NCBI RefSeq assembly: GCF_013307435.2
Contig: NZ_CP102845.1
Span: 1,302,001-1,366,000 of the forward strand
DNA length: 64,000 nucleotides
Source: Microvirga terrae
Lineage (GTDB): Bacteria; Pseudomonadota; Alphaproteobacteria; Rhizobiales; Beijerinckiaceae
Reading direction: 5' to 3'
Position numbers and translations under genes: made by a program. Below, in pieces: positions 2,705-60,866 of the stretch. The notes under the pieces are model-generated. The model saw only the letters and a list, made by a program, of their open reading frames with translations. It made no database searches and had not been told where the DNA came from. Each line of letters opens with the position of its first letter. The first letter of the stretch is position 1.

Positions 2705-4015
2705 ATGCAAATCAGCGTTTTTGGGATTGGCTATGTCGGTGCCGTCTCCGCGGCCTGTTTGGCCAACGATGGCCACAACGTCATTGCAGTCGATCCAAAT
2801 CCCCAAAAAGTCGGACCTCTCAACGAGGGTATCAGCCCGATCGTCGAGCCGGGACTGAGCGAGATGATCAAAGGCGGCATCAGCAGCAAGCGCCTGATGG
2901 CGACGAGCGATGTTCGCGAGGCCGTTCACGGGACTGACTTGTCCTTCGTGTGCGTAGGAACTCCCTCTCGTTCGAACGGATCGCTCGACACGGCTTATGT
3001 GAACGCCGCAGCCGAGCAGATCGGTGCAGCCATACGCGAGAAAAATTCCTTCCATTCCGTGGTCATGCGGTCGACGATCCTGCCAGGCACGATGGAGGGC
3101 ATCGTTCTCCCTGCTCTTGAACGCGCATCGGGCCGTCAGGCAGGCGTCGGCTTCGGCGTCGCATACTACCCCGAGTTCCTGCGGGAAAGCACAGCGATCG
3201 CCGATTACTATGATCCGGGGGCCATCATCTTCGGCCGTCACGATCAGCTGACGATCGATCGGCTGATCGATCTGCACAAGATTTTCAAAGTTGATCCGAA
3301 GATCGTGTCCATTCGCACGGCCGAGGCCGTCAAATATACGAATAATGCATGGCATGCGCTGAAGATCAGCTTCGCGAACGAGATCGGCAACATCTGCAAG
3401 GAGGCCGGAATCGATGGTCATGCCGTGATGGAGGTTCTGTGTGCCGATACGCGATTGAACATCTCCAAAGCGTACCTAAAGCCGGGCTTCGCGTTCGGAG
3501 GCTCCTGCCTCCCGAAGGATCTTCGGGCTCTGCGCTTCGCGGCACGTAAGCTCGACGTCCCGACGCCCATTCTCGATGCCACGATGGAGGCGAACGAAGA
3601 GCAGTTGCGTCGTGCATACTCGATGGTCGCCGCCACCGGCAAACGTCGTATCGGCATCATTGGTCTGAGCTTCAAGCCCGAGACCGACGATCTGCGTGAA
3701 AGCCCCCTGGTCGAACTCGCGGAGCGCCTCTATGGGCGTGGCTATGATATCCGCATCTACGACCCGAACATTCAGGTCGCGAAGCTGACCGGAGCCAACC
3801 TCCAGTTCGTCAAGGCGCATCTGCCCCACCTGACCTCGCTCCTGACCGACGATATCAACGAAGTCATTGATCACGCGGAGGCTTTCGTTCTCGGCAATCG
3901 CGATGAGGCAAAGCGGCTGATGGCGACCCTGAACGACGACAGGCCGCTCATCGATCTCGTGCGCATCGATCAGACAAGGTGTTCCGGTGACCTTTATCAA
4001 GGAATCTGCTGGTAA
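2705..4015 (+). CDS. algD: GDP-mannose 6-dehydrogenase
   Basis: 436 residues, the same length as Pseudomonas AlgD. It oxidises GDP-mannose twice with NAD+ to GDP-mannuronate, the committed alginate precursor, in the cytoplasm. The N-terminal Rossmann fold starts at once with MQISVFGIGYVGAV (GxGxxG). A central dimer helix and a C-terminal nucleotide-sugar domain (IGIIGLSFKPETDDLRESP) follow. The catalytic Cys268 sits in GFAFGGSCLPKD, exactly at the Pseudomonas position. YTNNAWHALKISFANE matches GDP-mannose rather than UDP-glucose dehydrogenases. An AGGAACAG-like site precedes the ATG. It is the first gene of the operon and overlaps alg8 by 29 bases. Confidence 0.95.
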   Translation: MQISVFGIGYVGAVSAACLANDGHNVIAVDPNPQKVGPLNEGISPIVEPGLSEMIKGGISSKRLMATSDVREAVHGTDLSFVCVGTPSRSNGSLDTAYVNAAAEQIGAAIREKNSFHSVVMRSTILPGTMEGIVLPALERASGRQAGVGFGVAYYPEFLRESTAIADYYDPGAIIFGRHDQLTIDRLIDLHKIFKVDPKIVSIRTAEAVKYTNNAWHALKISFANEIGNICKEAGIDGHAVMEVLCADTRLNISKAYLKPGFAFGGSCLPKDLRALRFAARKLDVPTPILDATMEANEEQLRRAYSMVAATGKRRIGIIGLSFKPETDDLRESPLVELAERLYGRGYDIRIYDPNIQVAKLTGANLQFVKAHLPHLTSLLTDDINEVIDHAEAFVLGNRDEAKRLMATLNDDRPLIDLVRIDQTRCSGDLYQGICW

Positions 4016-5531
4016 AACCAGCAGCAACCGGCTTTCGGAGTCGGTAGGGGCACACGTGCTCTATGTGGTGGCCGTAGCAGCGTTTGCTGCTGCGATCCCG
4101 CCTCAGGCTTACGGCGCCGTGAGCGCCGGAGCCGTTGGAACCATAGGGTTTCTCGCCCTGTGGCGCTACGGATGGGGCTTCCTGCATTTCATCCGCGCTC
4201 TGGTCTTCCGCAAACAGGCATTCCCACGCATGCGGAAGGCTGCCAATGCGGCGGTGGAGCAAGCACCACCCAACGCTTTTCTGCTTGTGACGACCTTTCG
4301 CATCGACAGTGCAGTCACCGCACGGGTCTATCGCGCCGTTTTCGAGGCGGCGTTGGCAGCCCCTGGAAGAGCAACGGTCGTCGCCTCCGTCGTGGAGGCC
4401 GGCGATCAGAGACTCGTCAAGAGCCTGTTCCGAGCCGTCTGCGGAGACGCGAGCAACGTCGATCTGGTCATGGTGCGCATTGCCGGGACAGGCAAGCGGG
4501 ACGCTCTCGCCTATGGCTTTCGAGCGATCGCACGCCGCACTCCTGCCGACGACGACGTTGTCGCCGTCATCGATGGAGACAGCATCGTCCCGCCTGACCT
4601 CGTGCGGAAATGTGCTGGGTTCTTCCAGCTCGATCCGCAAGTCGGGGCATTGACGACCGATGAGCTGAGCGAAGTCCGCGGCCGCCGAATCTTCCAGGAA
4701 TGGTATTCACTCCGCTTTGCCCAGCGCCACACCCTGATGTCGTCCGTCGGACTGTCGCAGCGCGTCCTGACATTGACCGGTCGGATGGCGATGTTCCGTG
4801 CGAGCATCATCTGCAACCCCGAGTTCGTTCGCCAGGTCGAACTCGACTACATCGACCATTGGCGCCTTGGCCGGTTCAAGTTCCTGACAGGGGACGACAA
4901 GTCGAGCTGGTTCTGGCTGCTTCGGAACGGCTACAAGATGCTCTACGTGCCCGACATCGTCGTGCTGACCGTCGAGGACCCGCCCTCGGACAGCTTCATC
5001 TCCGCCGCGGCCATGCTCATGGTGCGATGGTTCGGCAATATGCTGCGCACGAACTCGCGGGCTCTCGCGCTTGGTCCACGCAGGATCGGGCTGTTCACCT
5101 GGTGGGCGATTCTCGATCAGCGGATGTCGATGTGGACGTCGCTCGTGGGCTTCGTGATCGCTCTGCTGGCAGGGATCTTCGTCAGCGGCTATGCGCTCCT
5201 GCTTTATGCCCTCTGGATTCTGACGTCGCGCTACGTCCTGACCCTGTCCCTCTTGGCGTCCAGGCCGAGGGTCTCCGTCTTCTATCCTTTCCTTCTCTAC
5301 TTCAACCAGATCTTCGGGTCCCTGATCAAAGTCCATGTGACCTTCCGTCTCGACCGGCAGAAATGGACACGCCAGAAAACCGCCTCGACAAAGGCGACGA
5401 AGCGGCCCCTCATCGCGAGCAGCTTCATGTCCGCATACATGCATAGCCTCGCGCTGGCCACATTCGTGACGGTCCTCGCCTGGAGCATGGACGTGCTTCC
5501 GACACCGAAGCCGATGCTGTTTCTCCCTTAG
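3987..5531 (+). CDS. alg8: Alginate polymerase subunit, GT2 glycosyltransferase Alg8
   Basis: 514 residues, starting GTG inside the end of algD. A processive family-2 glycosyltransferase of the inner membrane that polymerises GDP-mannuronate. Membrane segments lie near residues 22-60, with two or three more at about 375-430 and one near the C-terminus. The cytosolic domain shows VTTFRID, the metal-binding DGDS (D196, D198), the acceptor motif TGDD (301-304) with Lys and Trp after it, and an RW pair (347-348) in the QxxRW position. Sequence flow is that of Pseudomonas Alg8 (494 residues). It works with Alg44, encoded 32 bases downstream. Confidence 0.93.
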   Translation: MTFIKESAGKTSSNRLSESVGAHVLYVVAVAAFAAAIPPQAYGAVSAGAVGTIGFLALWRYGWGFLHFIRALVFRKQAFPRMRKAANAAVEQAPPNAFLLVTTFRIDSAVTARVYRAVFEAALAAPGRATVVASVVEAGDQRLVKSLFRAVCGDASNVDLVMVRIAGTGKRDALAYGFRAIARRTPADDDVVAVIDGDSIVPPDLVRKCAGFFQLDPQVGALTTDELSEVRGRRIFQEWYSLRFAQRHTLMSSVGLSQRVLTLTGRMAMFRASIICNPEFVRQVELDYIDHWRLGRFKFLTGDDKSSWFWLLRNGYKMLYVPDIVVLTVEDPPSDSFISAAAMLMVRWFGNMLRTNSRALALGPRRIGLFTWWAILDQRMSMWTSLVGFVIALLAGIFVSGYALLLYALWILTSRYVLTLSLLASRPRVSVFYPFLLYFNQIFGSLIKVHVTFRLDRQKWTRQKTASTKATKRPLIASSFMSAYMHSLALATFVTVLAWSMDVLPTPKPMLFLP

Positions 5532-5563
5532 AATGAACGATACCGATTTGGAGCTTGAGGTTC

Positions 5564-6766
5564 ATGACGAAGATCACGCACGAAGCCGAGGTTCAAAGGC
5601 AACATCCCCGATACCGGATCCCGGTGCGGTGCATCTATAACGGATCTCAGGTCTCCGTGGTCGATGTCTCGGTCGGAGGCATCGGCCTGAGGACAGGCGC
5701 GATCGACGCGAAGCCGGGCCGTGTTCTCGACCTTACCCTGGTCTTCCCGTTCAGCGGCTACGAACTGTCGCTGCCCATCAATGCGGAGGTCCGCTACATC
5801 ACCGATGAGCACAGCAGGATCGGCCTGCGCTTTGTCGATGTCTCTCCGCGTCAGCACAACCTTCTGCGCTTCATCCTCGACGCCTACCTGTCCGGCGAGG
5901 TGGTGGATGCCGGTGACATTCTGGATGTGTCATCACGCCGGAACGAGGGCAAGACCCGTGAGGTTCCCCAGCGCGCCGCGCCGCAGGGATTGAGGGCTCA
6001 TCTTTCCCATCATGGCCGCACCGTAGCGGGCTATGTCGGGATCGGCGCCTTAACCCTGTTTCTTCTCGGGTTCATCGGCATGGGCCTCTTCGAGCGGATG
6101 TACATCATACCCGCCCAGTCGGCCCTGATCACTACGGACCTCGTGACGGTTCCGGCTCCTTCGAACGGTCAGGTCACGTTCGTCGCAACCGGCAGCGAAG
6201 TGAAGGCAGGGGAGCCGCTGCTGACGATCCAGGGCCCGCAGGGCAACAGCATCGTCATCGACAGTCCCTGCAACTGCGTCGTCCAGGCTCGTTACAGCCG
6301 AGCCGCCAATTTCGTCCGCGAAGGTGCGCCCATCCTGGCTCTCCGCGAGAAGACGAGCACTCCTTATGTCACGGCAAGCATCTCTCACGATCAGCTTCTG
6401 CGGTTCTATCGTGGCGCCAGTGCCGTCATCGAGTATTCCGATGGAACCCGTGTGCGGGAGAATCGCATTGAGCGCCTGCCGACCCTCGTCGGCGAGGCCG
6501 CATCGTCCGGTCCGTTCCTCGTCAAGCTCGCACCGGGACGCGATCTCGACATGTCCACCATCGGGCAGCCCGTATCCGTGGTCTTCAACACGTTCTCAGG
6601 ATCCTCGGTCGGCGCCGCGACCGGCAAGCTGCGGGCAGCCATGAACTGGGCAGGCGAGAGGATCGCGGCTGCCTTCGGGCAAGGCAACGAGGTGGCGGCG
6701 GCACCCAAAAAGGCCAAAGAGCCTGACGTCGACAGCGGGAGACGCCTCGCGGGGCTGAAACAATAA
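5564..6766 (+). CDS. alg44: c-di-GMP-binding polymerase partner Alg44 (PilZ + HlyD-like)
   Basis: 400 residues from ATG 5564. An in-frame TTG at 5555 is possible, but GGAG at 5549-5552 fits the ATG better. The N-terminal PilZ domain has both c-di-GMP motifs: R12xxxR16 (RQHPR) and D34xSxxG39 (DVSVGG). One membrane helix (about 155-176) follows, then a periplasmic HlyD/biotinyl-lipoyl-like part (VPAPSNGQVTFVATGSEVKAGEP). This matches Pseudomonas Alg44 (389 residues), which switches Alg8 on when c-di-GMP is bound and spans the periplasm towards the exporter. Because the motifs are intact, post-translational c-di-GMP control is expected. Confidence 0.92.
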   Translation: MTKITHEAEVQRQHPRYRIPVRCIYNGSQVSVVDVSVGGIGLRTGAIDAKPGRVLDLTLVFPFSGYELSLPINAEVRYITDEHSRIGLRFVDVSPRQHNLLRFILDAYLSGEVVDAGDILDVSSRRNEGKTREVPQRAAPQGLRAHLSHHGRTVAGYVGIGALTLFLLGFIGMGLFERMYIIPAQSALITTDLVTVPAPSNGQVTFVATGSEVKAGEPLLTIQGPQGNSIVIDSPCNCVVQARYSRAANFVREGAPILALREKTSTPYVTASISHDQLLRFYRGASAVIEYSDGTRVRENRIERLPTLVGEAASSGPFLVKLAPGRDLDMSTIGQPVSVVFNTFSGSSVGAATGKLRAAMNWAGERIAAAFGQGNEVAAAPKKAKEPDVDSGRRLAGLKQ

Positions 6767-6826
6767 CAACGATCAAATCAGGGCCACGCTTCGAAGCGCA
6801 ATCTTTAAACAGTTTGGAGATTTGAA

Positions 6827-8245
6827 ATGAACAGCATCATTCCCGTTCTGATGTGCGGTGGGTCCGGAACCCGGCTGTGGCCGGTATCCCGCTCCAGCGA
6901 GCCGAAGCAGTTCCATGCCCTCGCGGGTCAGTCGAGCCTGTTCCAGCAGACGGTTCGACGGTTCCGTACGGAACAGTATGCAGAGCCCGTCATCGTGGTG
7001 AACACCAACCATCGAGATCTCGCCCTGCGTGAAATCGGCCAGCTGCATGCCGGAGCCGCAAGGTTGCTGGTGGAGCCGTGCGTGCGCAGCACAGGACCTG
7101 CGATTGCGGCTGCAGCGTCTCTGATCGCCGAGGAAGATCCGGATCGCCTGATGCTCGTCGCCCCGAGCGATCACGTCATGGAACAAGCGGAGATCTTCTC
7201 GGAGGCCGTCGCTCAGGCCGCAAAGGCTGCGCAGCAGGGGCAGATCGTGCTTTTCGGCATTCGCCCGACCCAGCCGGAGACCGGGTTCGGCTATATCGAG
7301 ATCGGCGAGGCTTTCGACGACGCAAGCTTCAAGGTGAGAGGTTTCGTCGAGAAGCCGGCGCGGGCTGTCGCCGAGACACTGGTTGCCGGAGAGCGCCACC
7401 TCTGGAACAGTGGAATCTTCATGTTCACGGCCCGGACGATCCTCGATGAACTGGAGCGGCATGCGCCGGACGTTCTGGCCTGCGCCCGGCACGCTCTCGC
7501 CCTGGCTCAACGTGGCAACGACACCATTCGTCTCGCGGCCGAGTTCGACACGGCCCCGGTCATCTCGATCGACTACGCTGTGATGGAACGCAGCGATCGC
7601 CTCGTCTGCATCCCGGTCTCGCCCGAGTGGAGGGATCTCGGCTCCTGGTCCGCGCTCTGGGATATCGGGTCAAAGGACGGGAACGGGAATGTGTCGCGCG
7701 GCGACACACTCCTTCAGGACGTGCGTGACAGCTACGTTCACGGGAATTCCCGTCTTGTCGCAGTCATGGGAGTCGAGAACGTCGTCGTCATCGATACCGC
7801 GGACGCCGTTCTCGTCAGTTCATTGGATCAGGCCCAGAACGTCGGACGTCTGGCGGCCGAGCTGGCGGCATCGAAGCGTTCGGAGGCGGCCCTGCACCGG
7901 AAGGTACGCCGTCCTTGGGGATCGTACGAGTCCTTGCGTGTCGGTGAGACCTTCCAGGTGAAGCACATCGTCGTGGACGTGGCAGGTCGTCTGTCGTTGC
8001 AGTACCACCATCACCGCTCCGAGCATTGGACGGTCGTTTCGGGAACCGCAAGGGTAACCGTCGGCGAGAAGGTGTTTGTCATGACGGCAAACGAATCCGT
8101 CTACATTCCAAAAGGCGACGTCCACAGGCTCGAGAACATCGGCGATGAGGAGTTGCATCTGATCGAGGTGCAGTGCGGAACCTATCTCGGGGAAGACGAC
8201 ATCGTGCGTCTGGAGGATCAGTATGACCGCATCGTCACGATCTGA
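6827..8245 (+). CDS. algA: Bifunctional mannose-1-phosphate guanylyltransferase / phosphomannose isomerase
   Basis: 472 residues (Pseudomonas AlgA about 481). The N-terminal nucleotidyltransferase carries the pyrophosphorylase signature GGSGTRLWPVSR (11-22) and FVEKP (FVEKPARA here). The C-terminal cupin (about 350-465) is the type II phosphomannose isomerase, with RPWGSYESL, the metal-site stretch QYHHHRSEHW and YIPKGDVHRLEN. It converts fructose-6-P to mannose-6-P and mannose-1-P plus GTP to GDP-mannose. No phosphomannomutase (algC) is in the window, as usual for such operons. GGAG lies just before the ATG. The gene sits fourth, not last as in Pseudomonas, and its end overlaps the next gene by 23 bases. 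Confidence 0.93.
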   Translation: MNSIIPVLMCGGSGTRLWPVSRSSEPKQFHALAGQSSLFQQTVRRFRTEQYAEPVIVVNTNHRDLALREIGQLHAGAARLLVEPCVRSTGPAIAAAASLIAEEDPDRLMLVAPSDHVMEQAEIFSEAVAQAAKAAQQGQIVLFGIRPTQPETGFGYIEIGEAFDDASFKVRGFVEKPARAVAETLVAGERHLWNSGIFMFTARTILDELERHAPDVLACARHALALAQRGNDTIRLAAEFDTAPVISIDYAVMERSDRLVCIPVSPEWRDLGSWSALWDIGSKDGNGNVSRGDTLLQDVRDSYVHGNSRLVAVMGVENVVVIDTADAVLVSSLDQAQNVGRLAAELAASKRSEAALHRKVRRPWGSYESLRVGETFQVKHIVVDVAGRLSLQYHHHRSEHWTVVSGTARVTVGEKVFVMTANESVYIPKGDVHRLENIGDEELHLIEVQCGTYLGEDDIVRLEDQYDRIVTI

Positions 8246-11200
8246 AGGTCGCCGCCGCCTGAGGATGGCATCCCTCCTCCTGTCCATGGCGCTGGTTTCC
8301 AGCGCCATGGCGCAGGACGGCAGCGAGGTCACGCGTCTCGCGGACGAGGCGCGTCAGGCCTTCGTTGCCGCCGAACAGGGCGGTGTCAGCGCAAAGCAGA
8401 AGGCGGCGTTCTATCAGGTCGTGAGGGCGAGGCTCAAGCTCCTGGAGAAGTTCGCCGGTCAAGGCACCTCCGGCTCGGGCGAGTTCCGAGAAGGGGCGCG
8501 CGAGCAACTCACCCGTCTGGCGGACGAGGGGCTCAACCACGACATGGTCAGCGCGATGCTGCTCCAGGCCTCCATCGGCGATCTTGTTGGAATCCAGTCC
8601 GGCCCTGATCGGGTCGAGGCCGGTGTCGCCCTCCACCAGCTTGCAGGCGAGCAGCGGTCGCCGGCTTACCGGGCCGCAGCTTTCGTCGCGATTGCCAATG
8701 CCTATGCCAGGGTGGGATTCCAGGATCGGGCCGTCAGATACGTATCCTTAGCATTGGCTACGATCGACTTGGTCTCCGAGGCCGGCCAGCGTGCCGGGAT
8801 CCTGAATGCCGTGTCGCGGATCGCCTCTGGGATCGGCGCTCCTGGGATTGCCCTGGCAAACCGCACGATCGGTTTGATGCCGGCCTCCAGCAGCCGGGCC
8901 TATGCCCGCCAGGTGATGGCACGAGACCAGCTCAAGGGCACCCCACTGGAAAAGGCGCCTGACGCGAAGCTGAAGGTCGAGGCCAAGAAGCGTACAGCAA
9001 TGGGAGATCTGTCGGCAGGGCTGTCTTTGGCACTTGCAATGCAGGATGGCCGGGAGCGCGATGATGCTCTGTCTGCGTCACTCGAGGCCGCTGTCGAGCG
9101 TCGCGACAGGGACGTCTCCCTGGCGGCGGCACAGGGCTTCTTCGACAGCTCGAGGCAGGAGGCGGCACTTGCGGTCATCGTGAAGAATGACATGGACCGT
9201 GGAACGCCGCTTAGGGCCGCAGAGCTGGTCAACAGCCTGGAGGACGGCCATGGGAAGGCGGCGCTTCAGATCATTGTCGCGGCTGCGCTGAAGAAGGCCG
9301 GTTATGACAGAATGGCTGAGCGGATCTCAACAGGAGCTTCAGCCGTCAATCCCAGTTTAGGAAGGGCGACGGAACCTGGTGACATGACGCATCAGGCCGG
9401 GCCCGGCAAGAACGACCGGCGCACAGACGAGCTTATGATCCTGTCGGAGATCAGAGGTCTCATCGAGCAGAAAAGAAGGACTCTGGTTCCCGATGCGGCG
9501 CTCGCAGCCAGCCTGCGCCGAATTGCCAATCACGACGACCGAGCGGCTATTGCCCTCGAACTCGCCACACTGCCCGACACTGGTGTCAGTGCCGCTGATT
9601 TAGTCCGCTCCCTTGAAGACGATCGCTCTCGCGCCAAGACCTTCAGGCGTCTGGCTGAGATCCGTGCCGATCATCTCATGAAACCGTTAAGCGATGAACC
9701 TGGTGAAAATGGCGATGGCGCCGGAGCGTCTGCACCTGCCCTCGACGAAGAATCTCAGGAACTCCAGACCCGCCGGGGCCTTGCCCTGATCCGACTGGAC
9801 GCGCCTCAAACGGCAAGCGCTCCCGTTCTGATTCCCAGCCAATTTGAAACGTCGGCTGCCGTGAGGTCGAACACGCCTTGGCCCGGCGGTGCGGTCGTCG
9901 GGAGCACGTTTGCCCGTCACAATCCCTATATCGCGAAGTTCCTCGATGACGACGAGAGTGGGGTTACGCGCCTCGAGCAGGCCGTCCGGTACCAGGGTTT
10001 GCCTTCGCCACGGATCGTCGTCGTCCAGAGCGGAACGGCGACCTTGGGAATGGTAGCCCGCCAGCTGCAGGGAACGGACGCCCGCGACCTGATCGTCCAG
10101 GATGGTGATGCCATCGTCGTACGAGCTCCGGTCTTCGTCGCTCCCGGCGCAACGTTGATCCTCTCGCACCTCGATGCTCCAGTCTACCGATTGAGCGCCA
10201 CGGCCGGGGCGTTCATCGCCAACGCCGGCCAAGTCGACATCGTCGATGCAGATGTTGTGGGCTATGATGAAAAGACTGGGCAGCCATCGTGGTCCGACAG
10301 CGAGAAGTCAGGCCTGTTCCGTCCGTTCCTGCTGACATGGGGTGATGGCCGCATGAATGTGGCATCATCCGTCCTGGCAGCCCTCGGCTATGACAATGTA
10401 AAATCGTTCGGGCTCACGTACTCGTCAGGTCCGGATCAAGTCGCCAATGTGCGGGATCAGGCTCGCCCTACGGGAACCATCGTCGATAACGTTTTCCGAA
10501 ATCTCTATATCGGGTTCCACTCCTATGAGGCCGAGCGCCTCCAGGTCGTCGGTAATGAATTTCGGGACAGCATCGTCTATGCGGTGGACGCGCACGACGG
10601 GTCCAAAGGCAACATCATCGCCTTCAACACCGTCTACGGAACCATGGTCAGGCACGGGATTGCCGTGTCTCGCGACGCCGAGGACAATCTGATCGTCGGC
10701 AATCTGTTATTCGACAATGCCGGATCCGGGATCGTGCTGGATCGCAACAGCACGGACAACGTCCTCAACGCCAACAGCTCGTTCCAGAACATGCAGGATG
10801 GCGTGACCGTCTTCGAGAGCTCTTGCAACGTGTTGACGAACAATCATCTTGCCGGGAACAGGCGTGACGGATTGAAGGTTCGCAACAGTTTCGACGTGGG
10901 AGCCTACGGAAACAGAATCGAGGCCAATGCCAATTCCGGCGTGAGCGCCTATATCGCGAGCCTCCCCTCCTCGAAGAGAGGAGACGGGCAGGGAGAGGGA
11001 TCCGGCCGCTACGCTCCCGTGACCAGCCTGTCCCTCAGGAACAACAGCTTCTCGTCGAACGGAGTCGGCATCAACACGCAGGGCGTATCGGGCTTGACGA
11101 TGTTCTCGAACCGTTTCGTCAAGCAGTCCCGGCGCTTGCTGGGCGGCGACATCCGCGGCCTGGAGGGCCCCGTCCTTCGTCTCGCCTTCCAATCCGATGT

Positions 11201-11381
11201 GCTCATTGCAAGCACATGCCGGCCTGCGAAGCCCGTTTCGTCCTGTCGGCTCAGGGATTTGGGCTACTTGGAAGGAGACGCTGATCGGCAGATCTTCAAC
11301 TCCCAGGCCGGATCGGACTGCACCGACATCAATGGAAGCGTTCAACATCGAGCCTTCTCCAGCTCTTCTCAAGGGACCTAG
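8223..11381 (+). CDS. algG: AlgG-type mannuronan C5-epimerase with a ~550-residue alpha-solenoid extension
   Basis: 1052 residues, about twice the length of Pseudomonas AlgG (543). A signal peptide (about 1-31, ending SSAMA-QD) leads into about 550 residues of Ala/Leu-rich helical pairs resembling TPR-type repeats. AlgG homology begins near residue 580 (DLIVQDGDAIVV) and runs through RPFLLTWGDGR, the RPTGTIVDNVF/YEAERLQVVGN segments and a right-handed beta-helix. The active-site motif DPHDRS appears as DAHDGS (789-794): the catalytic His791 and both Asp are kept, while Pro and Arg are changed. The Arg in HGIAVSR is also kept. It should convert M to G residues in the periplasm. The extension may replace part of the AlgK scaffold. 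The gene starts inside algA and ends 7 bases before algL. Confidence 0.85.
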   Translation: MTASSRSEGRRRLRMASLLLSMALVSSAMAQDGSEVTRLADEARQAFVAAEQGGVSAKQKAAFYQVVRARLKLLEKFAGQGTSGSGEFREGAREQLTRLADEGLNHDMVSAMLLQASIGDLVGIQSGPDRVEAGVALHQLAGEQRSPAYRAAAFVAIANAYARVGFQDRAVRYVSLALATIDLVSEAGQRAGILNAVSRIASGIGAPGIALANRTIGLMPASSSRAYARQVMARDQLKGTPLEKAPDAKLKVEAKKRTAMGDLSAGLSLALAMQDGRERDDALSASLEAAVERRDRDVSLAAAQGFFDSSRQEAALAVIVKNDMDRGTPLRAAELVNSLEDGHGKAALQIIVAAALKKAGYDRMAERISTGASAVNPSLGRATEPGDMTHQAGPGKNDRRTDELMILSEIRGLIEQKRRTLVPDAALAASLRRIANHDDRAAIALELATLPDTGVSAADLVRSLEDDRSRAKTFRRLAEIRADHLMKPLSDEPGENGDGAGASAPALDEESQELQTRRGLALIRLDAPQTASAPVLIPSQFETSAAVRSNTPWPGGAVVGSTFARHNPYIAKFLDDDESGVTRLEQAVRYQGLPSPRIVVVQSGTATLGMVARQLQGTDARDLIVQDGDAIVVRAPVFVAPGATLILSHLDAPVYRLSATAGAFIANAGQVDIVDADVVGYDEKTGQPSWSDSEKSGLFRPFLLTWGDGRMNVASSVLAALGYDNVKSFGLTYSSGPDQVANVRDQARPTGTIVDNVFRNLYIGFHSYEAERLQVVGNEFRDSIVYAVDAHDGSKGNIIAFNTVYGTMVRHGIAVSRDAEDNLIVGNLLFDNAGSGIVLDRNSTDNVLNANSSFQNMQDGVTVFESSCNVLTNNHLAGNRRDGLKVRNSFDVGAYGNRIEANANSGVSAYIASLPSSKRGDGQGEGSGRYAPVTSLSLRNNSFSSNGVGINTQGVSGLTMFSNRFVKQSRRLLGGDIRGLEGPVLRLAFQSDVLIASTCRPAKPVSSCRLRDLGYLEGDADRQIFNSQAGSDCTDINGSVQHRAFSSSSQGT

Positions 11382-11388
11382 GAGCAGC

Positions 11389-12486
11389 ATGAACCGAATT
11401 CTCGCCTTCTCTGTCTTGAGCCTTCTCATGACGGCGACGTGCCATGCCCAGGTGAGGGCGCAGGGCTTGTTCGATGTGGAAGCCCGCCGCGCGGCCCTTT
11501 CGCAACCGTCTCTTGCGGCCGCGCGCGCGGCCTGCCTTGCGATTGCTCGCGATCCATCCTGGGCCAGCCTCAAACCCGTTGACGGAGTCAAGGCCGCCGA
11601 TGGCCCCAACACCGATGGAGGCGTCAACACCCATTCCTGGGCCGTCATGGCCCTGACTGGGCGAGCTCTCGCCGGCGATGCAGCATCCGAGGCATCCCTG
11701 CGGGATCTCCTGCTCGCCTGGGCGAAGGCCAGAGCGTTCGAGGGCACGGGTGCCGAGAGCGAGGCCCTTTATGGACTGAAGCGCGTGCTTCTGCCGACGA
11801 TCGTGGCTTATTCCGTTCTGCATCGCAGCCTGGATGACAGCCAGCGGCAGATCGTTTCCGGATGGATCGATTCTCTCGTTCGCAGGGTCGACCGGACCTT
11901 CGGCACGGATACGGTTCGCGACAGCCAGCGCGCTCTGGCCGACAGCATCCTCATGGCCTGGGGAGCCATCACGGCGGACGATGCTCTCTATGAGAGAGGT
12001 TCCCGCGGATATCGCGCCGTCCTTGGACAGGCCCGCCCCGACGGGAGCCTCGTACTGGAGACACGACGCGGAGCCCGCGCCCTGTGGCACATGCGCCAAT
12101 CCCTGGCGAGCCTGACCGTCATGGCAGAAGTCGCCGCCACCCGTGGCGTGGATCTGTACGGACTCCGTGAGGGCGAGGCGAATTTCGACCGGATCCTCTC
12201 CTATCTCCTCAACGGAATTACAGAACCTGAAGTCGTGATGGCTTATGCCTCGGAGAACGAAAGTCCCGGCGCTGAGGCTGACTTTCGCCGCCAGGACATG
12301 AGCTTCCTGGCGAAGCGCGGTTTCGGGCGCCACCCCATGGCTTGGGTCGAGCCGGTTGCGGCCCGCGATCGGGTCGGCCTTGCGACGAAGCGGCTCAAGA
12401 CGCTGCTGGCGCGCAGCCTCCGGTCGGACCGGCCTCTCATCGATGAACTCGCTGGCGGCAATGCCACATGCTTTTGGGGGCGTTGA
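11389..12486 (+). CDS. algL: AlgL-like protein (PL5 alginate lyase family), catalytic motif lost
   Basis: 365 residues, the size of Pseudomonas AlgL (367), with a signal peptide ending at CHA-QV. Start ATG 11389 follows AGGAGCAGC; an upstream in-frame extension to 11197 only overlaps algG. The alpha/alpha-barrel pattern is retained: SWAVMALTGRAL near 83, ETRRGARAL near 224-232, TRGVDL at 251-256 and the C-terminal RPLIDELAGGNAT. By my remembered alignment the NNHSYW motif is replaced by a region around TVRDSQRALAD (175-185), and the catalytic Tyr is His234. An Arg of the RR pair remains. It may bind rather than cleave polymer, or cleave something else. Its stop overlaps the next start (TGATG). 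Confidence 0.72.
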   Translation: MNRILAFSVLSLLMTATCHAQVRAQGLFDVEARRAALSQPSLAAARAACLAIARDPSWASLKPVDGVKAADGPNTDGGVNTHSWAVMALTGRALAGDAASEASLRDLLLAWAKARAFEGTGAESEALYGLKRVLLPTIVAYSVLHRSLDDSQRQIVSGWIDSLVRRVDRTFGTDTVRDSQRALADSILMAWGAITADDALYERGSRGYRAVLGQARPDGSLVLETRRGARALWHMRQSLASLTVMAEVAATRGVDLYGLREGEANFDRILSYLLNGITEPEVVMAYASENESPGAEADFRRQDMSFLAKRGFGRHPMAWVEPVAARDRVGLATKRLKTLLARSLRSDRPLIDELAGGNATCFWGR

Positions 12487-15410
12487 TGAACCGAACTCAC
12501 CTGGGCCTGCTCGGTGCCCTCACAATTCTGACATCGCTTCCGTCCGGCCCGGCATTCTCTCAAGCTTCAACCGAGGTTGAACTGCGCGACGGGTTCCGCA
12601 GCATCCTGGCGAAGGTCGAGCAACTGAAGCAGCGCAACGATCCGGCTGCTCTCGTCGAGCGGGCTCAGGTGCTGCAGGACGGCCTTCCCGTCAGCGAAAC
12701 GAACCCGCTCAGGGTTCCGCAACCGGACGAAGCGGCTCGTCTCTACGAGCAGGCCCTGGCCCTGCCGGGAGCGCACTGGCCATCGGCGGCGCTGCGGCGT
12801 GCCAAGTTGATCCTGGCGCGTGACCGGGACCCGGCTTCCGTCGATCGGGCAGCCGAGCTGCTGCGCCGCGCTGCGGCGTTGCAGAACCATGAGGCGGCCT
12901 TCGTCCTCGCCGGCCTGATGGAAGCAGGGATTGGCGGCAAGCAGGATCCGGAAGGCGCCAGAAATCTGTATCAGATCGCTCTTCGATCCGAGCACGGCCC
13001 CGCCGGCCTCGAGCTCGCGCGTCTCGAGAGCGATCCGGCAAAGGCGAACGTCTTCGCGACCCAAGGCTTGAGAATCCTGTTCCAGGAAGCTCAAGGGGGA
13101 TCGGCTGAGGCGGCCAGGACACTGGCCGACCATTACCGTGATACGGCCAACGGATCGGACAGGATCAATGCCGCCATCGAATGGTACCAGCGGGCCACCG
13201 ACCTTGGGGATGCAGAAGCCGCCCTGCGCCTGGGGCGCTTGAGAGCCGATCCGAAATCTGCTTCGTCCCAGCCGCAGCAGGCGAAGATTGCTTTCGAGAA
13301 GGCCGCTCAACGCGGATCCGTCGAAGCAGCCATGATCCTTGCCGAGGATCCCTACAACGGTGCGGCTCTCGGTGTCGAGGCCAGTACGGCCGATCTCTGG
13401 CTCAATCGGGCCATCGAGACGAAGGCCCCGCGAGCTTTGGTTCTCGCGGCAGAAATTCGGAGCCAAAATGGTCCTGATGGACGGCAGGCCGCAAAGGATC
13501 TGCTGGTTGAGGCCGTTCGGCGCGTCGATCAGGATGTGACGGTGCTCGTCGCGCTCGGCCGCCATCTTCGCGATGGCGTTCTCATCGACCGTGACGTGGA
13601 GTTGGCACTCAAGTTGTTCGACAGGGCGGCGGCCAGCGACAATTCGGCGGCACTATACGAGTTTGCCCGCACTTCGCTTGCTCATCCGGATGTTGCGACG
13701 GAGACCATGCGCAGGACGGCGATCGAGCGGCTTCGGACGGCGGCGGAGCGTGGTCACGTGAAGGCGGCGGTGAGCATGGGAGACGCGCTGCTTCGCGGCA
13801 ATGGGGTTCCTGAATCGCAGGCCGAAGCCATGCGCTGGTACCGCCGCGCAGCCGAGAGCGGTTCTCCTGTCGCCTATATCCGTCTCGGCGATCTTTATGC
13901 GAGCCGCTTTTCCGGCATGGAAGCGCCACGCGCTCTGGAATGGTATCGCAAGGCCGCCGAGGCCGACAGCGCGATTGCCATGATCCGGCTCGGCAAGATG
14001 TTCAACGATGGAAGGGGAGTGCCGCAGGATCAGGCTCTGGCCGCGACCTGGTTCAGCCGCGCCGCAGCCGCCGGAAGCAGCACCGCCATGGTGGAGCTGA
14101 GCGCACTCTACTCTCAGGCCGGCGGGCCGGGTCATTTCAACTTGGCCCGTGAGGGACTCGAGAAGGCGATCAAGGCCGGCGACAGCCGTGCCCCGATTGC
14201 GCTGGCCAAACTCTATCTTGCGCGTGGCGAGCGCGTGCTGGCTGAGGGGACTCTCAGGAAGGCTGCCGAGGGCGGGAGTGCCGAGGCTGCCCTGCAGCTG
14301 GCTGAGATATCGCTTTCAGGCCAGCCGACGGGAGAGCAGCAGAATGCCGCCCGCCGGTGGCTGGCCATCGCCGAAAAGGCCATGGCCGCCGATGATGACC
14401 AGAATGGCAAGATTGCCTTGCTGTACCTCCGCCTCCCGGACACCGCGTCGATCGAACACGGCGCGTCCGTTCTGGAGACGTTGGTTCGAAAGAACAGTGC
14501 CGAGGCCATGACCCTTCTGGCGACGGCTCTCCTGCAGGGAACGGGGGGCAGGCAGGACCCGGCGCGGGCGGAGGCGCTGCTTCGGCGCGCCATACAGCTT
14601 GGACATGATGGAGCGCGCTTCATCCTCGCCAAAGCCTATCGCGACGGCGACGGCATCCCACGCGACCCCGCCCAGGCAATGGCGCTCTACCGGGAGATCT
14701 ACAACGAGGAGCCGGGCGACACCAAGGTACAGCTGGCTCTGGGTGATGCCTACGAGCGCGGCGTAGGCGTCGCTCAGGACCGCAGGATGGCCGCGGAGTT
14801 CTTCGCTCAGGCGGCGCGCCAGGGAGACCCGGACGGGCAGATCCGTCTTGGGCTCGCGTACCTCTACGGCGGCGGCGTGGAGCGTGACAGCCGTACTGCC
14901 GAGCAATGGCTGTCACAGGCCGGCGAGGCTGGGCAGATCGACGCGAGGCTTCAGCTCGGAAGCCTCAAACTGTCCGGCCTGAGCACAGCGGTCGACAGCG
15001 AAGGTGCGTTCGCCTCCTACCTGCGGGCCGCAGAAGGCGGATCTCCGCTCGCGATGATCGAGGTGTCGCGTGCCTTGGCGAATGGTACCGGCACACAGCT
15101 TGATCCGGGGCTTGCAAAAACCTGGCTCGAAAGAGCCGCAAGCCTTGGTTCCCCGGATGCGATGTTCGAACTCTATCGTCTGAACGACATCGCAGCGAAG
15201 CCGAACGTGCGTGAAGCCGACCGTTGGCTCAGGCAAGCAGCCGAGAAAGGTCATCCGGGCGCGATGTACCGGCTGGCGTTTCGTTACCAGCAGGGATCGT
15301 CCGACAAGGAGCGAGCCATGGCTCGGGAATGGCTTGAGAAGGCCGCGCGAGCCGGTCACTCCCAGGCCGCCAAAGCCTTGGCGAAACTGACGAACGCGAC
15401 GCCCGGCTGA
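12486..15410 (+). CDS. Large periplasmic Sel1-repeat protein, AlgK-like (first of three)
   Basis: 974 residues from ATG 12486, which overlaps the algL stop as TGATG and is preceded by GGGGG. An ATG at 12468 would add six residues. A signal peptide ends at AFS-QAS. The whole mature protein is a chain of Sel1/TPR-like helix pairs, for example AMRWYRRAAESGSPVAYIRLG and AATWFSRAAAAGSSTAMVEL, with spacer loops such as GDGIPRDPAQAM. Pseudomonas AlgK, a Sel1-type lipoprotein of about 475 residues, sits at the same functional place and assembles the export complex. This protein is twice as long, and I see no lipobox. It is most likely a scaffold for Alg44, AlgG and an outer-membrane exporter. Confidence 0.8.
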   Translation: MNRTHLGLLGALTILTSLPSGPAFSQASTEVELRDGFRSILAKVEQLKQRNDPAALVERAQVLQDGLPVSETNPLRVPQPDEAARLYEQALALPGAHWPSAALRRAKLILARDRDPASVDRAAELLRRAAALQNHEAAFVLAGLMEAGIGGKQDPEGARNLYQIALRSEHGPAGLELARLESDPAKANVFATQGLRILFQEAQGGSAEAARTLADHYRDTANGSDRINAAIEWYQRATDLGDAEAALRLGRLRADPKSASSQPQQAKIAFEKAAQRGSVEAAMILAEDPYNGAALGVEASTADLWLNRAIETKAPRALVLAAEIRSQNGPDGRQAAKDLLVEAVRRVDQDVTVLVALGRHLRDGVLIDRDVELALKLFDRAAASDNSAALYEFARTSLAHPDVATETMRRTAIERLRTAAERGHVKAAVSMGDALLRGNGVPESQAEAMRWYRRAAESGSPVAYIRLGDLYASRFSGMEAPRALEWYRKAAEADSAIAMIRLGKMFNDGRGVPQDQALAATWFSRAAAAGSSTAMVELSALYSQAGGPGHFNLAREGLEKAIKAGDSRAPIALAKLYLARGERVLAEGTLRKAAEGGSAEAALQLAEISLSGQPTGEQQNAARRWLAIAEKAMAADDDQNGKIALLYLRLPDTASIEHGASVLETLVRKNSAEAMTLLATALLQGTGGRQDPARAEALLRRAIQLGHDGARFILAKAYRDGDGIPRDPAQAMALYREIYNEEPGDTKVQLALGDAYERGVGVAQDRRMAAEFFAQAARQGDPDGQIRLGLAYLYGGGVERDSRTAEQWLSQAGEAGQIDARLQLGSLKLSGLSTAVDSEGAFASYLRAAEGGSPLAMIEVSRALANGTGTQLDPGLAKTWLERAASLGSPDAMFELYRLNDIAAKPNVREADRWLRQAAEKGHPGAMYRLAFRYQQGSSDKERAMAREWLEKAARAGHSQAAKALAKLTNATPG

Positions 15411-15421
15411 CAGGGTGAAGA

Positions 15422-18328
15422 ATGAGCGACGCAGGACAGCGGAATGCTCGGACATGTGAGAAGGGGTGGAGAGCCACAATGGTGATGTTTCGTCGGCCCG
15501 CCAGAGTATCGCTGGCCTTTCGGCCAGCCCGGATCGGCAGCGCCTCCCTGGCAGGTTTCGCCGTGTGGATGGCGCTTGCCGCCCCCGGGGCTTCCCAGAC
15601 ATCCGCACCGCGATCCCTCGCACCCAATGCCGATTTTAGCAAGATCTGCCAGCCGGCCACCAAGCCGCACCTGACGCGGGATTGGAGCACGTGGGACAGA
15701 TCGCAGCCCGTCAACAATCCCGACGAGATGTACGAGGCTGCGATCGCCTACGCCGAGGGACGTTCCGACATCAGCCGGTCGCCTCTGACGGCGCGTAAAC
15801 TTCTCGAGGATCTCGCAGACCGGCCATGGGCCGGGAGGGGCAGGGCTCATTTTCGTCTGGGCAAGCTCTTTCTCGATCCTGCCGCGGGGCCTGTCGATGC
15901 CGAGCGTGCGGCGAGCCATTTCAAGACGGCCTCTTCCATGCTGAACATGGATGCATCCGTTCTGCTCGCTCAGCTCCATGTGCAGGGTCGGATTGCCGCG
16001 GCCAATGTTCGAGACGCGGAGCAACTGCTCCGCGCCTCCGCGACGGCTGGCAATATCGACGGCATGATCGAGTTGGCGCGGCTGCAGCGCAGCGGGAAGA
16101 TCGGTTCTGTCCCGCAGGGCGCGACGGACGATCTCATCAAGCTGGCCCTCCAGACCCTCTACGCCGATCTCGGGAAAGGCAAGTGCGGCGCGCTCTTCGA
16201 GATCGGGACGATCTTGAGCGAAGACGCCCTTGTGCCCGGAGGACTGACTGAGGCCGTCAGGTGGTTCGAAGCCGCCGCACGCCAGGGCGACGCCAAGGCC
16301 GATCTGGCCCTTGCGGAAATTTACCTGCAAGGCCGTGTCGAGGCGGCCCCGGAGCAGTTTCTGTCGCATCTCACACGAGCCGCGGAGGCGGGACAGCCTC
16401 GGGCCATGACGTTGCTGGGTGAGCGTCTCCTGCTCGGCGATCGTGCGCCGAAAGATGTGCCCAAGGCGATCGCCTGGCTCGAGCGCGCCGGGTCGAATGC
16501 CGATCCCGAGGCCTACAAGCTCCTTGCCCGCCATTACCGTGGCGAGTTCGGCGCAGCCGCGGACCTGCCGAAGGCGGCGGACGTCCTCGTGAAGGCAAGT
16601 GCCTTGCCGGGGCACACCAATGGCATTCTGGTCAGCCTCGCACGGCTTTATGCCGCTGGCACGACCGGGAAGCCGGATGTGAATGCGGCCTTGAGCCTCT
16701 ATCGCCAAGCGGCGGCCCGCGGGGATGTCGGATCTCTCACGGAAATGGCGAAACTTCTGCTGGCCTATCCGGCGATGGGACGGTCCGAGGAGGCGCTTCG
16801 CCACCTGAAGGAGGCCGCCTCGCTTGGTGATGCCGATGCCATGGGTGTGCTGGCCGAACTCTACGCCTGCAGCACCGCCGTCGCTCCGGATCCGGTGCAG
16901 GCCGAGGTTTGGTTGACGCGCGCGGCGGAGGCCGGACACGTGCGCAGCATTTCGGCCATCGCGAACCAGGCAGGCGACGATCCGGCCGTCGCCCAGCGGA
17001 ACGCGAAGGCGCTCCTCCGTGCAGCCGAGCGTGGAGACCGCGAGAGCATGATCCTCCTGTCCTCCGCCTATCGCTCCGGTCTGGGCGTCACAATGGATGA
17101 GGCGGCATCGGCCCGCTGGCGCGAGATAGCTCTCGCACCAGGGGAGGGGCGGACCCGGGCCATGGTTCTCCTGGCCCGTCGAATGCTAGACGGCAAGTCC
17201 GGCGGCCGCGACGAGGCCGGGGCCCGGACGCTGCTCGAGGCTGCCGCGCAAGAGAGTGACCCGAACGCGCAACTCGAACTCGGACGCCTCTTGGTCGCCC
17301 AACGTGGGCGGAGCGAGGATGTCATGAAGGGCGTGCAGCTCCTGCGGGAGTCCGCCTCGGCGGGCAATGCTGCCGCGATGCTGGCTCTCGCCGAGCTCCC
17401 CAACGCTCAGCTTCAAGTGACCGGCAAGACAGGATTGGAGTGGAGGCAGGCGGCGGCGGCGGCCGGCAACGTGCGGGCGGCCATTACCCTTGCGGCGAGT
17501 GCCAAGGATGAGCCTGAGGCCGCGCGCTGGCTCACCCGCATTGCATCATTGCCGGTTTGTACCACACGAGACATGGTGGAGCTCGCGCAGGCCTATCACA
17601 AGGTTCCCGGTCCGGATCACAAGGAGAACGCTCGTCTTTGGATGAAGAGGGCCCTCGCGGACACCCAAGGCAGCGGCCGCGATCCATCAGCCCTGTTCCT
17701 GATCGGGCGTGCGATGGTCGAGGAAGTCGGCGGGCCTGCCAGCAAGAACGAGGCCGTCAGGTACATCCAAATCTCAGCAGAAGCAGGCCGGGTTGATGCA
17801 ATGCGTTACCTGGGTCGCGGCTATGTCTCCGGAGAGATCGGCGAGAGCAACATGCAAACAGCCGTGCAATGGCTCTCCAGAGCTTTGCAGAAAGGAGACG
17901 CCGCCGTAGCGGCCGACCTTTCGAGAGTGGCTGCAATGCCCACGGAGGCGGCCGGTCGAGCGGTGGAGACTCTCCGGGCGAGCGCCGAGAGCGGCTTTGC
18001 GCCGGCCATTCGGGAATATGGACGCAGCCTGCAGCTCGGCTTCGGTGTGCCGGCTGATCCGCGAACCGGCGCAGCTTGGCTGCTGAAGGCGGCAGAGGCC
18101 GGCGACACGATCGCCATGAAGGAGCTCTCCCGTGCCTTTGCATCGGGATACGGCGTCGAACTATCGGCGAGCGCAAGCACGGAATGGCTTCAGCGTGCGG
18201 CACGAGCCGGCGATCCAGAGGCCATGTACGGTCTCAGCCTCGCCATGACGCTCGGCTTCGGCACCGACGTGAATGCAAGCGCCGCGCAGGACTGGCTGAA
18301 GACGGCGGAGGGTGCTGCCCGGAAGTGA
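15422..18328 (+). CDS. Large periplasmic Sel1-repeat protein (second of three)
   Basis: 968 residues if the ATG at 15422 is used. The in-frame ATG at 15479 (949 residues) has a better GGAG site and gives a more normal signal peptide, with its hydrophobic core ASLAGFAVWMALAAPGASQT. Nearly the entire chain is Sel1 repeats, such as AVRWFEAAARQGDAKADLALA and AVQWLSRALQKGDAAVAADL. A few segments around 520-700 match the consensus poorly. It lies 11 bases after the first Sel1 gene, so it is co-translated in the operon. The role is inferred to be a second periplasmic scaffold in polymer modification or export. It is not a duplicate in sequence detail. Confidence 0.78.
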   Translation: MSDAGQRNARTCEKGWRATMVMFRRPARVSLAFRPARIGSASLAGFAVWMALAAPGASQTSAPRSLAPNADFSKICQPATKPHLTRDWSTWDRSQPVNNPDEMYEAAIAYAEGRSDISRSPLTARKLLEDLADRPWAGRGRAHFRLGKLFLDPAAGPVDAERAASHFKTASSMLNMDASVLLAQLHVQGRIAAANVRDAEQLLRASATAGNIDGMIELARLQRSGKIGSVPQGATDDLIKLALQTLYADLGKGKCGALFEIGTILSEDALVPGGLTEAVRWFEAAARQGDAKADLALAEIYLQGRVEAAPEQFLSHLTRAAEAGQPRAMTLLGERLLLGDRAPKDVPKAIAWLERAGSNADPEAYKLLARHYRGEFGAAADLPKAADVLVKASALPGHTNGILVSLARLYAAGTTGKPDVNAALSLYRQAAARGDVGSLTEMAKLLLAYPAMGRSEEALRHLKEAASLGDADAMGVLAELYACSTAVAPDPVQAEVWLTRAAEAGHVRSISAIANQAGDDPAVAQRNAKALLRAAERGDRESMILLSSAYRSGLGVTMDEAASARWREIALAPGEGRTRAMVLLARRMLDGKSGGRDEAGARTLLEAAAQESDPNAQLELGRLLVAQRGRSEDVMKGVQLLRESASAGNAAAMLALAELPNAQLQVTGKTGLEWRQAAAAAGNVRAAITLAASAKDEPEAARWLTRIASLPVCTTRDMVELAQAYHKVPGPDHKENARLWMKRALADTQGSGRDPSALFLIGRAMVEEVGGPASKNEAVRYIQISAEAGRVDAMRYLGRGYVSGEIGESNMQTAVQWLSRALQKGDAAVAADLSRVAAMPTEAAGRAVETLRASAESGFAPAIREYGRSLQLGFGVPADPRTGAAWLLKAAEAGDTIAMKELSRAFASGYGVELSASASTEWLQRAARAGDPEAMYGLSLAMTLGFGTDVNASAAQDWLKTAEGAARK

Positions 18329-18396
18329 TGTCCGCGTGGAGACGAAGAACCATGAAAGACGAGACGAGCGCTGACATGCGTTGTGGGAGAGGCAAG

Positions 18397-19701
18397 ATGA
18401 TCAAGATTAATGGTATCGTTCTCCTGAGCTGCCTCTTCACGAGCGCTTCTCTGGCGGGCTTGGCCGCCTCTCCGAGCGACGCGAAGGCACCGGCAGCCCA
18501 GGGGGCTGCCACGGCCAAGCCCGCATCGCCCACCCAGGCGCAGCTGCGCGCCATGTCCACGGTGAGGCTCCTCCGCCTCGGTCGGAAAGCTCTCGACGCG
18601 GAGATGGATACGCAGGACTTCGCCACCGGGCTGGATGCGGCCAAGATCGCGTCGTCCCGCGGCGACCGCGAAGCAACCCGCCTCATGGCAAAGATCATGG
18701 CCCGCCACGAGGTGGCGCTGCAGGGTGTCGATCGTGCCCGGCTCGAGCAGCGCCTCCGGTTCGAGGCTCTCAGAGGCGCCTCGAGTTCGGTGCTGGCCGT
18801 GGCCGGCATGTACGATCGCGGCGAAGGTGTTCCCGTCGACACGAAGAAGGCCGCCGAGTGGTACCTGTGGGCTGCTCGTGTCGGTCATGAGCGCGCTATG
18901 GCCTATGCCGCTTATGGCTATGGCACCGGTCGTGGCTTGGAGCGCAATGAGACGGCTGCGCTGAAATGGCTCGATAGTGTGAACGAGGGCCGTCGGCGCA
19001 GCACCCTGCTCGAGATCGGCTGGGCGCTCGCCCTGGGTAGCGAGGGAACGACGGACATGGAGTCGGCGCTTCGGTTCTTCGAGCAGGCGGCTCAACTCAA
19101 GCCTAGCATCGCCTACCAGGTCGCTGCCGAACTGGAGCGTGGAACACGAGGGATCCAGAACCGTGATGCGGCCGCCCGGTTGATCAGGATCGCGGCGGAG
19201 CGCGGCGATTCCGCTGCCGCCATGCGCATGGCGACTGCTCTCTCGAGCAGCACCGATCTCGAAGACCAGCGGCAGGTCGTGCGGTGGTACAGCCTTGCAG
19301 CCCTGGACAAGGACAATCTGGCGGCCGGGCAGACCCTCGCAAGACTTCTGACCTTGCGGCCCGCCGATGACTTGGTTGCTCTGATCATCGCAGGTCTCGA
19401 CAAGGCGGCCTCGGCCGGGAACACCGAAGCGCTCATCGGCCTGGCTCATGCCTACAACGATGGGATTGGCGTTCAAGCATTGCCGGAGAAGGCAGCAAGC
19501 CTGCTGCAGATTGCGGCCGATTCAGGCAATTCCGAAGCCAAGTACCGGCTTGGACTCATGTACAAGTCAGGATCGGGGGTCCGTGCCGACTCCGCGAAGG
19601 CGATCGAACTCATGAGCAGCGCCCGGGATAGCGGCTTTCCTCTTGCCGCCGTTGCTTTGAGTGCCATGACAGATCCTGCAACAGCCGAACCGACCAGGTA
19701 G
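18397..19701 (+). CDS. Sel1-repeat protein of AlgK-like size (third of three)
   Basis: 434 residues from ATG 18397, chosen because GGGAGAGG precedes it and a signal-like segment (MIKINGIVLLSCLFTSASLAG) follows at once. ATG 18328 overlaps the previous stop as TGATG and would give 457 residues; ATG 18376 would make the LLSC stretch usable as a lipobox. Sel1 repeats fill residues ~100-430, for example AAEWYLWAARVGHERAMAYAAYG and AASLLQIAADSGNSEAKYRLG. In length it is the closest to Pseudomonas AlgK (475). It is the last gene of the operon. A lipoprotein that seats the exporter is plausible, but the anchor is uncertain. Confidence 0.75.
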   Translation: MIKINGIVLLSCLFTSASLAGLAASPSDAKAPAAQGAATAKPASPTQAQLRAMSTVRLLRLGRKALDAEMDTQDFATGLDAAKIASSRGDREATRLMAKIMARHEVALQGVDRARLEQRLRFEALRGASSSVLAVAGMYDRGEGVPVDTKKAAEWYLWAARVGHERAMAYAAYGYGTGRGLERNETAALKWLDSVNEGRRRSTLLEIGWALALGSEGTTDMESALRFFEQAAQLKPSIAYQVAAELERGTRGIQNRDAAARLIRIAAERGDSAAAMRMATALSSSTDLEDQRQVVRWYSLAALDKDNLAAGQTLARLLTLRPADDLVALIIAGLDKAASAGNTEALIGLAHAYNDGIGVQALPEKAASLLQIAADSGNSEAKYRLGLMYKSGSGVRADSAKAIELMSSARDSGFPLAAVALSAMTDPATAEPTR

Positions 19702-56092: not shown

Positions 56093-56104
56093 GCTGGTTC
56101 CCTC

Positions 56105-58909: not shown

Positions 58910-58912
58910 CGC

Positions 58913-59839: not shown

Positions 59840-59849
59840 GACGGTGTTC

Positions 59850-60866
<1,017 letters not shown>

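Follow-up and report, generated by a model that had tools for sequence, protein, structure and literature searches.

The window, that is, the whole 64,000-nucleotide stretch of DNA that was analysed, belongs to a Microvirga chromosome (a 5.3-Mb contig), in which nine genes, all on the + strand, run from 2705 to 19701: algD, alg8, alg44, algA, a fused algG, algL and then three genes for Sel1-repeat proteins. The nine frames are all open, and neighbouring genes either overlap, by 29, 23 or 19 bases, or instead are separated by gaps of 23, 60, 7, 11 and, before the last gene, 68 bases, as measured with algL starting at 11389 and sel1c at 18397. A sequence-only reading of this DNA had described just such a closely spaced, co-directional set, and all of its frames and junctions were re-found. 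Its supposition of a Hyphomicrobiales host was right as well, the Alg8 of this genome being 97% identical to that of M. sesbaniae. The nine genes, along with two lying 3' of them, are as follows.

2705..4015, + strand: algD, GDP-mannose 6-dehydrogenase; best PDB match 1mfz, over residues 1-436; Cys268
3987..5531, + strand: alg8, GT2 mannuronan synthase; Glyco_tranf_2_3 match; relatives named Alg8 or mannuronan synthase; DGDS (196) and TGDDK (301)
5555..6766, + strand: alg44, PilZ c-di-GMP receptor and HlyD-like co-polymerase; PilZ and HlyD_3 Pfam matches
6827..8245, + strand: algA, mannose-1-phosphate guanylyltransferase / mannose-6-phosphate isomerase; TIGR01479 at 595 bits, cut-off 373
8223..11381, + strand: algG fusion, N-terminal TPR-like alpha-solenoid (about residues 30-486) and AlgG mannuronan C5-epimerase (531-967)
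11389..12486, + strand: algL, PL5 alginate lyase homologue with NNH motif and catalytic Tyr replaced and Arg kept
12468..15410, + strand: sel1a, Sel1-repeat protein with signal-peptide-like start (N-terminus judged by eye); PF08238 at 230 bits
15422..18328, + strand: sel1b, Sel1-repeat protein, most AlgK-like of the three; PF08238; NF038194 (AlgK) at 105 bits, below the cut-off of 700
18397..19701, + strand: sel1c, Sel1-repeat protein with lipobox-like Cys (LLSC); Sel1 Pfam match
20167..20937, + strand: LuxR-type regulator, candidate operon controller; GerE domain
21374..22231, + strand: response regulator with LuxR output domain, candidate operon controller; Response_reg and GerE

Profile matches (Pfam/NCBIfam) agree with the family labels assigned earlier, i.e., nucleotide-sugar dehydrogenase, GT2, PilZ plus HlyD, GMP_PMI, AlgG beta-helix, PL5 alginate lyase and, three times, Sel1. 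The AlgD cysteine and the two Alg8 motifs that had been called canonical are present. Compared with proteins of the PDB, AlgD scores 472 bits against the GDP-mannose dehydrogenase 1mfz versus 262 bits against the best UDP-glucose dehydrogenase. Alg44 has three PDB matches, each of them a Pseudomonas Alg44 PilZ domain, and its RxxxR and DxSxxG motifs, described previously as intact, line up with those of the Pseudomonas structure 4rt0. The Alg8 synthase gene, furthermore, adjoins that of the Alg44 PilZ co-polymerase, as in alginate operons. The gene content and order are those of an alginate-type operon with algA in fourth place, as had been proposed, and on this basis the product is most likely a c-di-GMP-controlled mannuronate polymer, i.e., alginate.

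The two LuxR-type regulators are found in all 13 of the operon-bearing Microvirga stretches read, with unrelated genes further downstream being equally constant. The segment that they occupy (20167-22231) is low in G+C, 0.57 versus 0.66 for 22-64 kb. Elsewhere in the window, on the minus strand at 54020-59905, DUF58, BatA/DUF4159 and DUF7408-like genes are consecutive, resembling an ordinary BatA/DUF58 cluster.

In Pseudomonas and Marinobacter, operon order is algD-alg8-alg44-algK-algE-algG and onward, and both AlgA and a PL5 AlgL are known in Pseudomonas, as they are found in the Microvirga operon. AlgD, Alg8 (53% identity in a Marinobacter locus), Alg44 and the AlgG fold are alike, and the Microvirga repeat proteins match AlgK weakly. 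What differs is the position of algA, the fusion of AlgG to a solenoid, the three long Sel1 proteins, the loss of AlgL catalytic residues and an operon without AlgE, AlgX or AlgIJ-type genes, the AlgE and AlgX families going undetected genome-wide.

In place of a single AlgK outer-membrane lipoprotein, there are indeed three Sel1 proteins, with AlgK-model scores of 35-105 bits (cut-off 700), along with the fused solenoid; the earlier proposal of that substitution is supported. AlgK is absent from the fold-match lists of the solenoid, with a relation to AlgK still being compatible. We did not adopt sel1c as a lipoprotein equivalent of AlgK because, of 16 Microvirga proteins (that of the window included), only 8 retain the lipobox-like Cys. 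The C-terminal portion of the fused protein has the AlgG fold, and its D-x-H-D motif with the following Ser-Arg is invariant in 35/35 aligned homologues. The Pro of the DPHD motif is replaced, however, in 14 of 18 Microvirga proteins, again including that of the window, and AlgG epimerase activity therefore may be changed.

A scan based on Alg8 alignments returned at least 80 loci. Among the Alg8 matches listed, 17 of 17 Microvirga loci have algD, alg8, alg44, algA and a long algG in that order, with algL next, followed by sel1a, in 16 of them (algL being absent in one). A number of loci from Rhizobium, Devosia, Fulvimarina and relatives share the core, in the order alg8-alg44-long algG-algL-Sel1, with or without algA and algD, which in several of these loci stand in the same places. 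Recurrence of the gene set in the same order across loci therefore is far beyond chance. The separate-branch architecture suggested earlier holds insofar as the layout is not that of Pseudomonas, but it is not peculiar to this genome, recurring as it does in Microvirga and, in part, in other Hyphomicrobiales. Across that order, 397 genomes were sampled, and Alg8 homologues (E 1e-60 or better) occur in 36 of them, with scores above 600 bits in 11 (the present genome included).

Among the Alg8 matches listed, AlgG is clear in 59 operons, namely those of 58 loci and that of the window, and in 50 of these it has at least 1000 residues. Among these 50, single-sequence searches reaching up to 10 kb to each side of alg8 found an AlgE-like porin in none, a BBP2-like porin in three, AlgI in five and an ALGX protein in seven. 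Some of the other Hyphomicrobiales loci differ from the window, that is, in having AlgI (5/50) or ALGX (7/50) within 10 kb. Operon counts exclude a distant, 39%-identical Alg8 of one Microvirga genome (G066), Alg44 counts exclude weak matches outside of the genus as well as fragments in G004, and the locus of G064 was read twice (L040, L157). The excluded Alg8 (L156, G066:C284) has a PL7 lyase nearby, together with a frame of 599 residues that matches Alg44 weakly. Another alg8-like sequence, likewise distant at 39%, has one internal stop codon (G061:C360:117391-118755).

None of 19 genomes sampled from the family's other genera has Alg8, and Rhizobium accounts for 9 of 14 plasmid records with a relative; together these do no more than suggest horizontal transfer. 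Some database entries for Alg8 of this branch already bear the name 'glycosyltransferase Alg8' or 'mannuronan synthase', and atypical alginate operons in which outer-membrane (algKE) or acetylation loci are missing have been published, according to the available portion of PMC7112194. The branch therefore is not new, and the operon is a variant of the known alginate system rather than a new kind of system. In that available portion, the atypical operons are those of named deep-sea bacteria, with Microvirga absent from the main text and neither AlgL decay nor a solenoid fusion mentioned. Among the literature titles and abstract openings listed, none mentions this operon.

The strongest sequence-based indication of mannuronan as the polymer comes from lyase and epimerase neighbours. 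This genome has a second PL5 gene (C1:2083200-2084357, minus strand), closest to poly(beta-D-mannuronate) lyases, which keeps the NNHRYW and R...Y motifs. Over 48 Microvirga genomes, such an unlinked PL5, i.e., one at a distance from the operon or on a different contig, is found in 21/21 operon-bearing genomes versus 1/27 others (Fisher 1e-12), and PL7 lyases, counting a weak fragment in G004, are found in 20/21 versus 3/27 (Fisher 3e-9), values which overstate independence because genomes of one genus are related. NNHRYW is kept in 29/29 unlinked copies read, of 30, with one (G033:C209) left out of the motif reading. Of the 21 operon-bearing genomes, 10 have PL7 no more than 10 kb away from alg8, and PL7 genes are near alg8 also in one Devosia and one Rhizobium locus. 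In the window's own genome PL7 is not that close; two PL7 genes, with RTX-like repeats as judged by eye, are instead found elsewhere. One operon-positive genome, G068, is without PL7.

Adjoining the unlinked PL5, upstream, is a gene with a Tlde1 (L,D-transpeptidase-like) domain (L117:1306-3711; C1 ~2083200-2085605). A homologue of this neighbour is present at 20 of 30 PL5 loci, that is, in 19 of 21 operon-bearing genomes plus G032, these 30 loci including one operon AlgL (L153) and the domain having been scanned in two.

In four sister species an AlgE4/AlgE6-like mannuronan epimerase gene adjoins the operon: M. solisilvae (L036), M. vignae (L038), Microvirga sp. KLBC 81 (L039) and M. makkahensis (L040). 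Another stands beside the operon at a Rhizobiaceae locus (L061). The M. vignae and Rhizobiaceae epimerases (L038:5117-8029 and L061:3697-8118) were compared with solved structures, the rest being assigned by similarity to the former, and in both the DPHE motif of AlgE reads NPHE. The likeness is to the secreted AlgE epimerases of Azotobacter, that is, AlgE4/AlgE6 A-module homologues with RTX repeats. No AlgE-type epimerase gene was seen in the operon neighbourhood within the window.

PL5 and PL7 might instead serve in feeding on environmental alginate, with any link to the operon one of shared ancestry only. Co-occurrence within a genus is not independent, the RTX-type PL7 look secreted, and both lyases occur in G032, a genome without the operon. 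The closeness of PL7 to alg8 in nearly half of the operon-bearing genomes, and in Devosia and Rhizobium as well, argues against feeding, as does the absence of PL5 from 26/27 operon-negative genomes, leaving this explanation unlikely. We favour instead that the unlinked lyases act upon the operon's own product.

The operon's AlgL presents a different picture. It is a PL5 family member by profile (PF05426, 64 bits), with the NNH motif reading D-S-Q, i.e., with Gln at the His site (Arg in one pairwise alignment), and with His in place of the catalytic Tyr; the catalytic Arg is retained. In PL5 lyases Asn-His, Arg and Tyr are used in catalysis, and the available part of PMC8829089 reports that P. 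aeruginosa AlgL variants H202A, R249A and Y256F are without measurable activity in vitro, that growth of cells making alginate suffers with Y256F and R249A but not with H202A, and that P. aeruginosa requires active AlgL for viability while producing alginate. Among the 21 operon-bearing Microvirga genomes, with loci matched to genomes by coordinates, AlgL is intact (NNH plus Tyr) in 14, degenerate in five (that of the window, G009/L024, G020/L025, G027/L154 and G014/L034), absent in one (M. flocculans, G023/L027, with no algL frame) and reduced to a short remnant-like frame in one (G068/L155). By contrast, all 21 AlgL read from outside of Microvirga, i.e., from other Hyphomicrobiales, keep NNH and Tyr.

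The five degenerate genomes carry differing substitutions, as expected of relaxed constraint, with the Arg changed too in L154. Among the window, L024 and L025, algL dN/dS is approximately 0.25, versus 0.12-0.16 in four species pairs with intact AlgL, while algD, alg8, alg44 and algA give 0.02-0.10 in seven pairs, these being pairwise Nei-Gojobori values with some dS above 1. Constraint on algL in the window's clade is relaxed, yet not free, and because it is still under purifying selection the protein should have some function. Decay was considered as the property of a single clade, and the window, L024, L025 and L154 do form one (support 100), but L034 lies outside of it. The tree places L027 weakly, with support of 65 inside a group that has 81.

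AlgL of this clade could still be an active lyase with a re-arranged site, with the polymer an ordinary alginate. The Arg is kept in the window, a His in the place of Tyr could act as a base, and the gene is both open and under purifying selection. On the other side, stabilising His and catalytic Tyr are both changed, to Gln and to His, where non-Microvirga proteins retain them, the substitutions differ among the degenerate genomes, one further genome has no algL and another has a remnant. An active site of this sort consequently seems rather improbable; judged by its residues, the operon AlgL looks catalytically dead.

AlgG of the window's clade, in addition, has lost approximately 190-200 residues of its solenoid; that of M. 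aerilata is undeleted. AlgL is non-catalytic or missing in 5/5 genomes with this deletion versus 2/15 without it, as counted with G034 left out and with some deletions scored by AlgG length alone. There is a hint here that solenoid deletion and AlgL loss are linked, on the tree perhaps as just one or two events. A separate solenoid gene was looked for as well: The profile matched a 770-residue frame 5' of a short AlgG in L089, but a run of N lies at the break, and lone solenoid frames in L080, L081 and L088 each run to the sequence end, from which nothing was concluded. As a tentative proposal, possible rather than probable, AlgL of the clade would be a non-cutting structural or polymer-guiding part, with activity handed to the unlinked PL5, with the solenoid portion that had served an active lyase lost, and with export being via neither AlgE nor BBP2_2.

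The sequence-only reading had spoken of a complete precursor, polymerase and epimerase set, but the alginate gene set is incomplete: Besides the state of the operon lyase, genome searches detected neither AlgE nor AlgX nor a BBP2_2 porin. That reading had noticed neither the lost catalytic residues of AlgL nor the undetected AlgE and AlgX families. AlgX/AlgJ (PF16822) gave no matches genome-wide in a search that did detect it in 4/4 positive-control genomes. The AlgE porin family (PF13372) likewise gave none, with the control matched in just 1/14, such that a divergent porin is possible; BBP2_2 (PF10082) was not found either in the whole genome. Indeed, the undetected export genes may be merely divergent. 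A single match to MBOAT, the AlgI-type family, is unlinked to the operon. This sole MBOAT gene is followed by an SGNH-like gene, as judged by eye (L124:8243-10640), possibly forming an unrelated acyltransferase pair. BBP2_2 porins are found near alg8 in L073, L086 and L089, and some other Alphaproteobacteria therefore seem to export by another way. At these loci a BBP2_2 porin and a Sel1 gene, paired, are divergent from alg8 (L073:5998-9683, L086:3826-6908, L089:539-3243), a candidate non-AlgE alginate export pair. In P. aeruginosa, AlgK-AlgX interaction is required for alginate production (PMC9734138, available portion).

Might the polymer then be some different uronate homopolymer or heteropolymer? 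The AlgX, AlgE and BBP2_2 families are undetected, and the literature titles and abstract openings listed mention neither alginate production by Microvirga or Rhizobiales nor any chemistry of this branch. A GDP-mannose dehydrogenase, an AlgG fold, PL5 together with PL7, and an AlgE-type epimerase in sister species nevertheless all point to mannuronan, and a non-alginate product is less probable still than a re-arranged lyase. An operon silent or decaying in this strain, which AlgL decay, the shortened solenoid and undetected AlgE and AlgX might suggest, is the least probable alternative, given nine open frames and the low dN/dS of algD, alg8, alg44 and algA.

The explanation preferred, to which we give a probability of roughly 0.72, is of a synthase-dependent mannuronan system with a non-cutting AlgL, clean-up by an unlinked PL5 and a non-AlgE exit. 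It is supported because AlgD is far closer to GDP-mannose dehydrogenase, and by the AlgG fold, lyase co-occurrence and neighbouring epimerases. From the observed gene content, residues, folds and co-occurrence we infer the activities and the polymer's route. By their families, AlgA and AlgD would supply GDP-mannuronate, which Alg8 would polymerise and extrude, controlled, as conserved motifs suggest, by c-di-GMP upon the PilZ domain of Alg44. The AlgG-fused solenoid and three Sel1 proteins would form a periplasmic helical scaffold, with polymer handed along it, replacing AlgK/AlgX, and AlgG would epimerise part of the mannuronate. The operon AlgL presumably no longer cuts, with the PL5 encoded elsewhere doing the clean-up and RTX-type PL7 lyases trimming polymer outside. 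The polymer, finally, would not be acetylated by AlgIJX-type enzymes, and probably would exit via an outer-membrane protein of a non-recognised family.

What is new here is the loss of catalytic residues in AlgL, the co-occurrence of unlinked PL5 and of PL7 with the operon, the solenoid-fused AlgG with its clade-specific deletion, the undetected AlgE, BBP2_2 and AlgX, and the epimerase genes of four sister species. This is a natural lineage, that is, in which the operon apparently has lost its lyase activity, in which AlgX and AlgE are undetectable, and for which a candidate replacement lyase can be named. The Microvirga case opens two questions beyond Pseudomonas, i.e., how alginate can cross the outer membrane without AlgE, and by which periplasmic lyase the cell is protected. 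With an Alg8 homologue in the 36 Hyphomicrobiales genomes noted above, it suggests too that quite a few soil and root members of this order have alginate as a matrix polymer.
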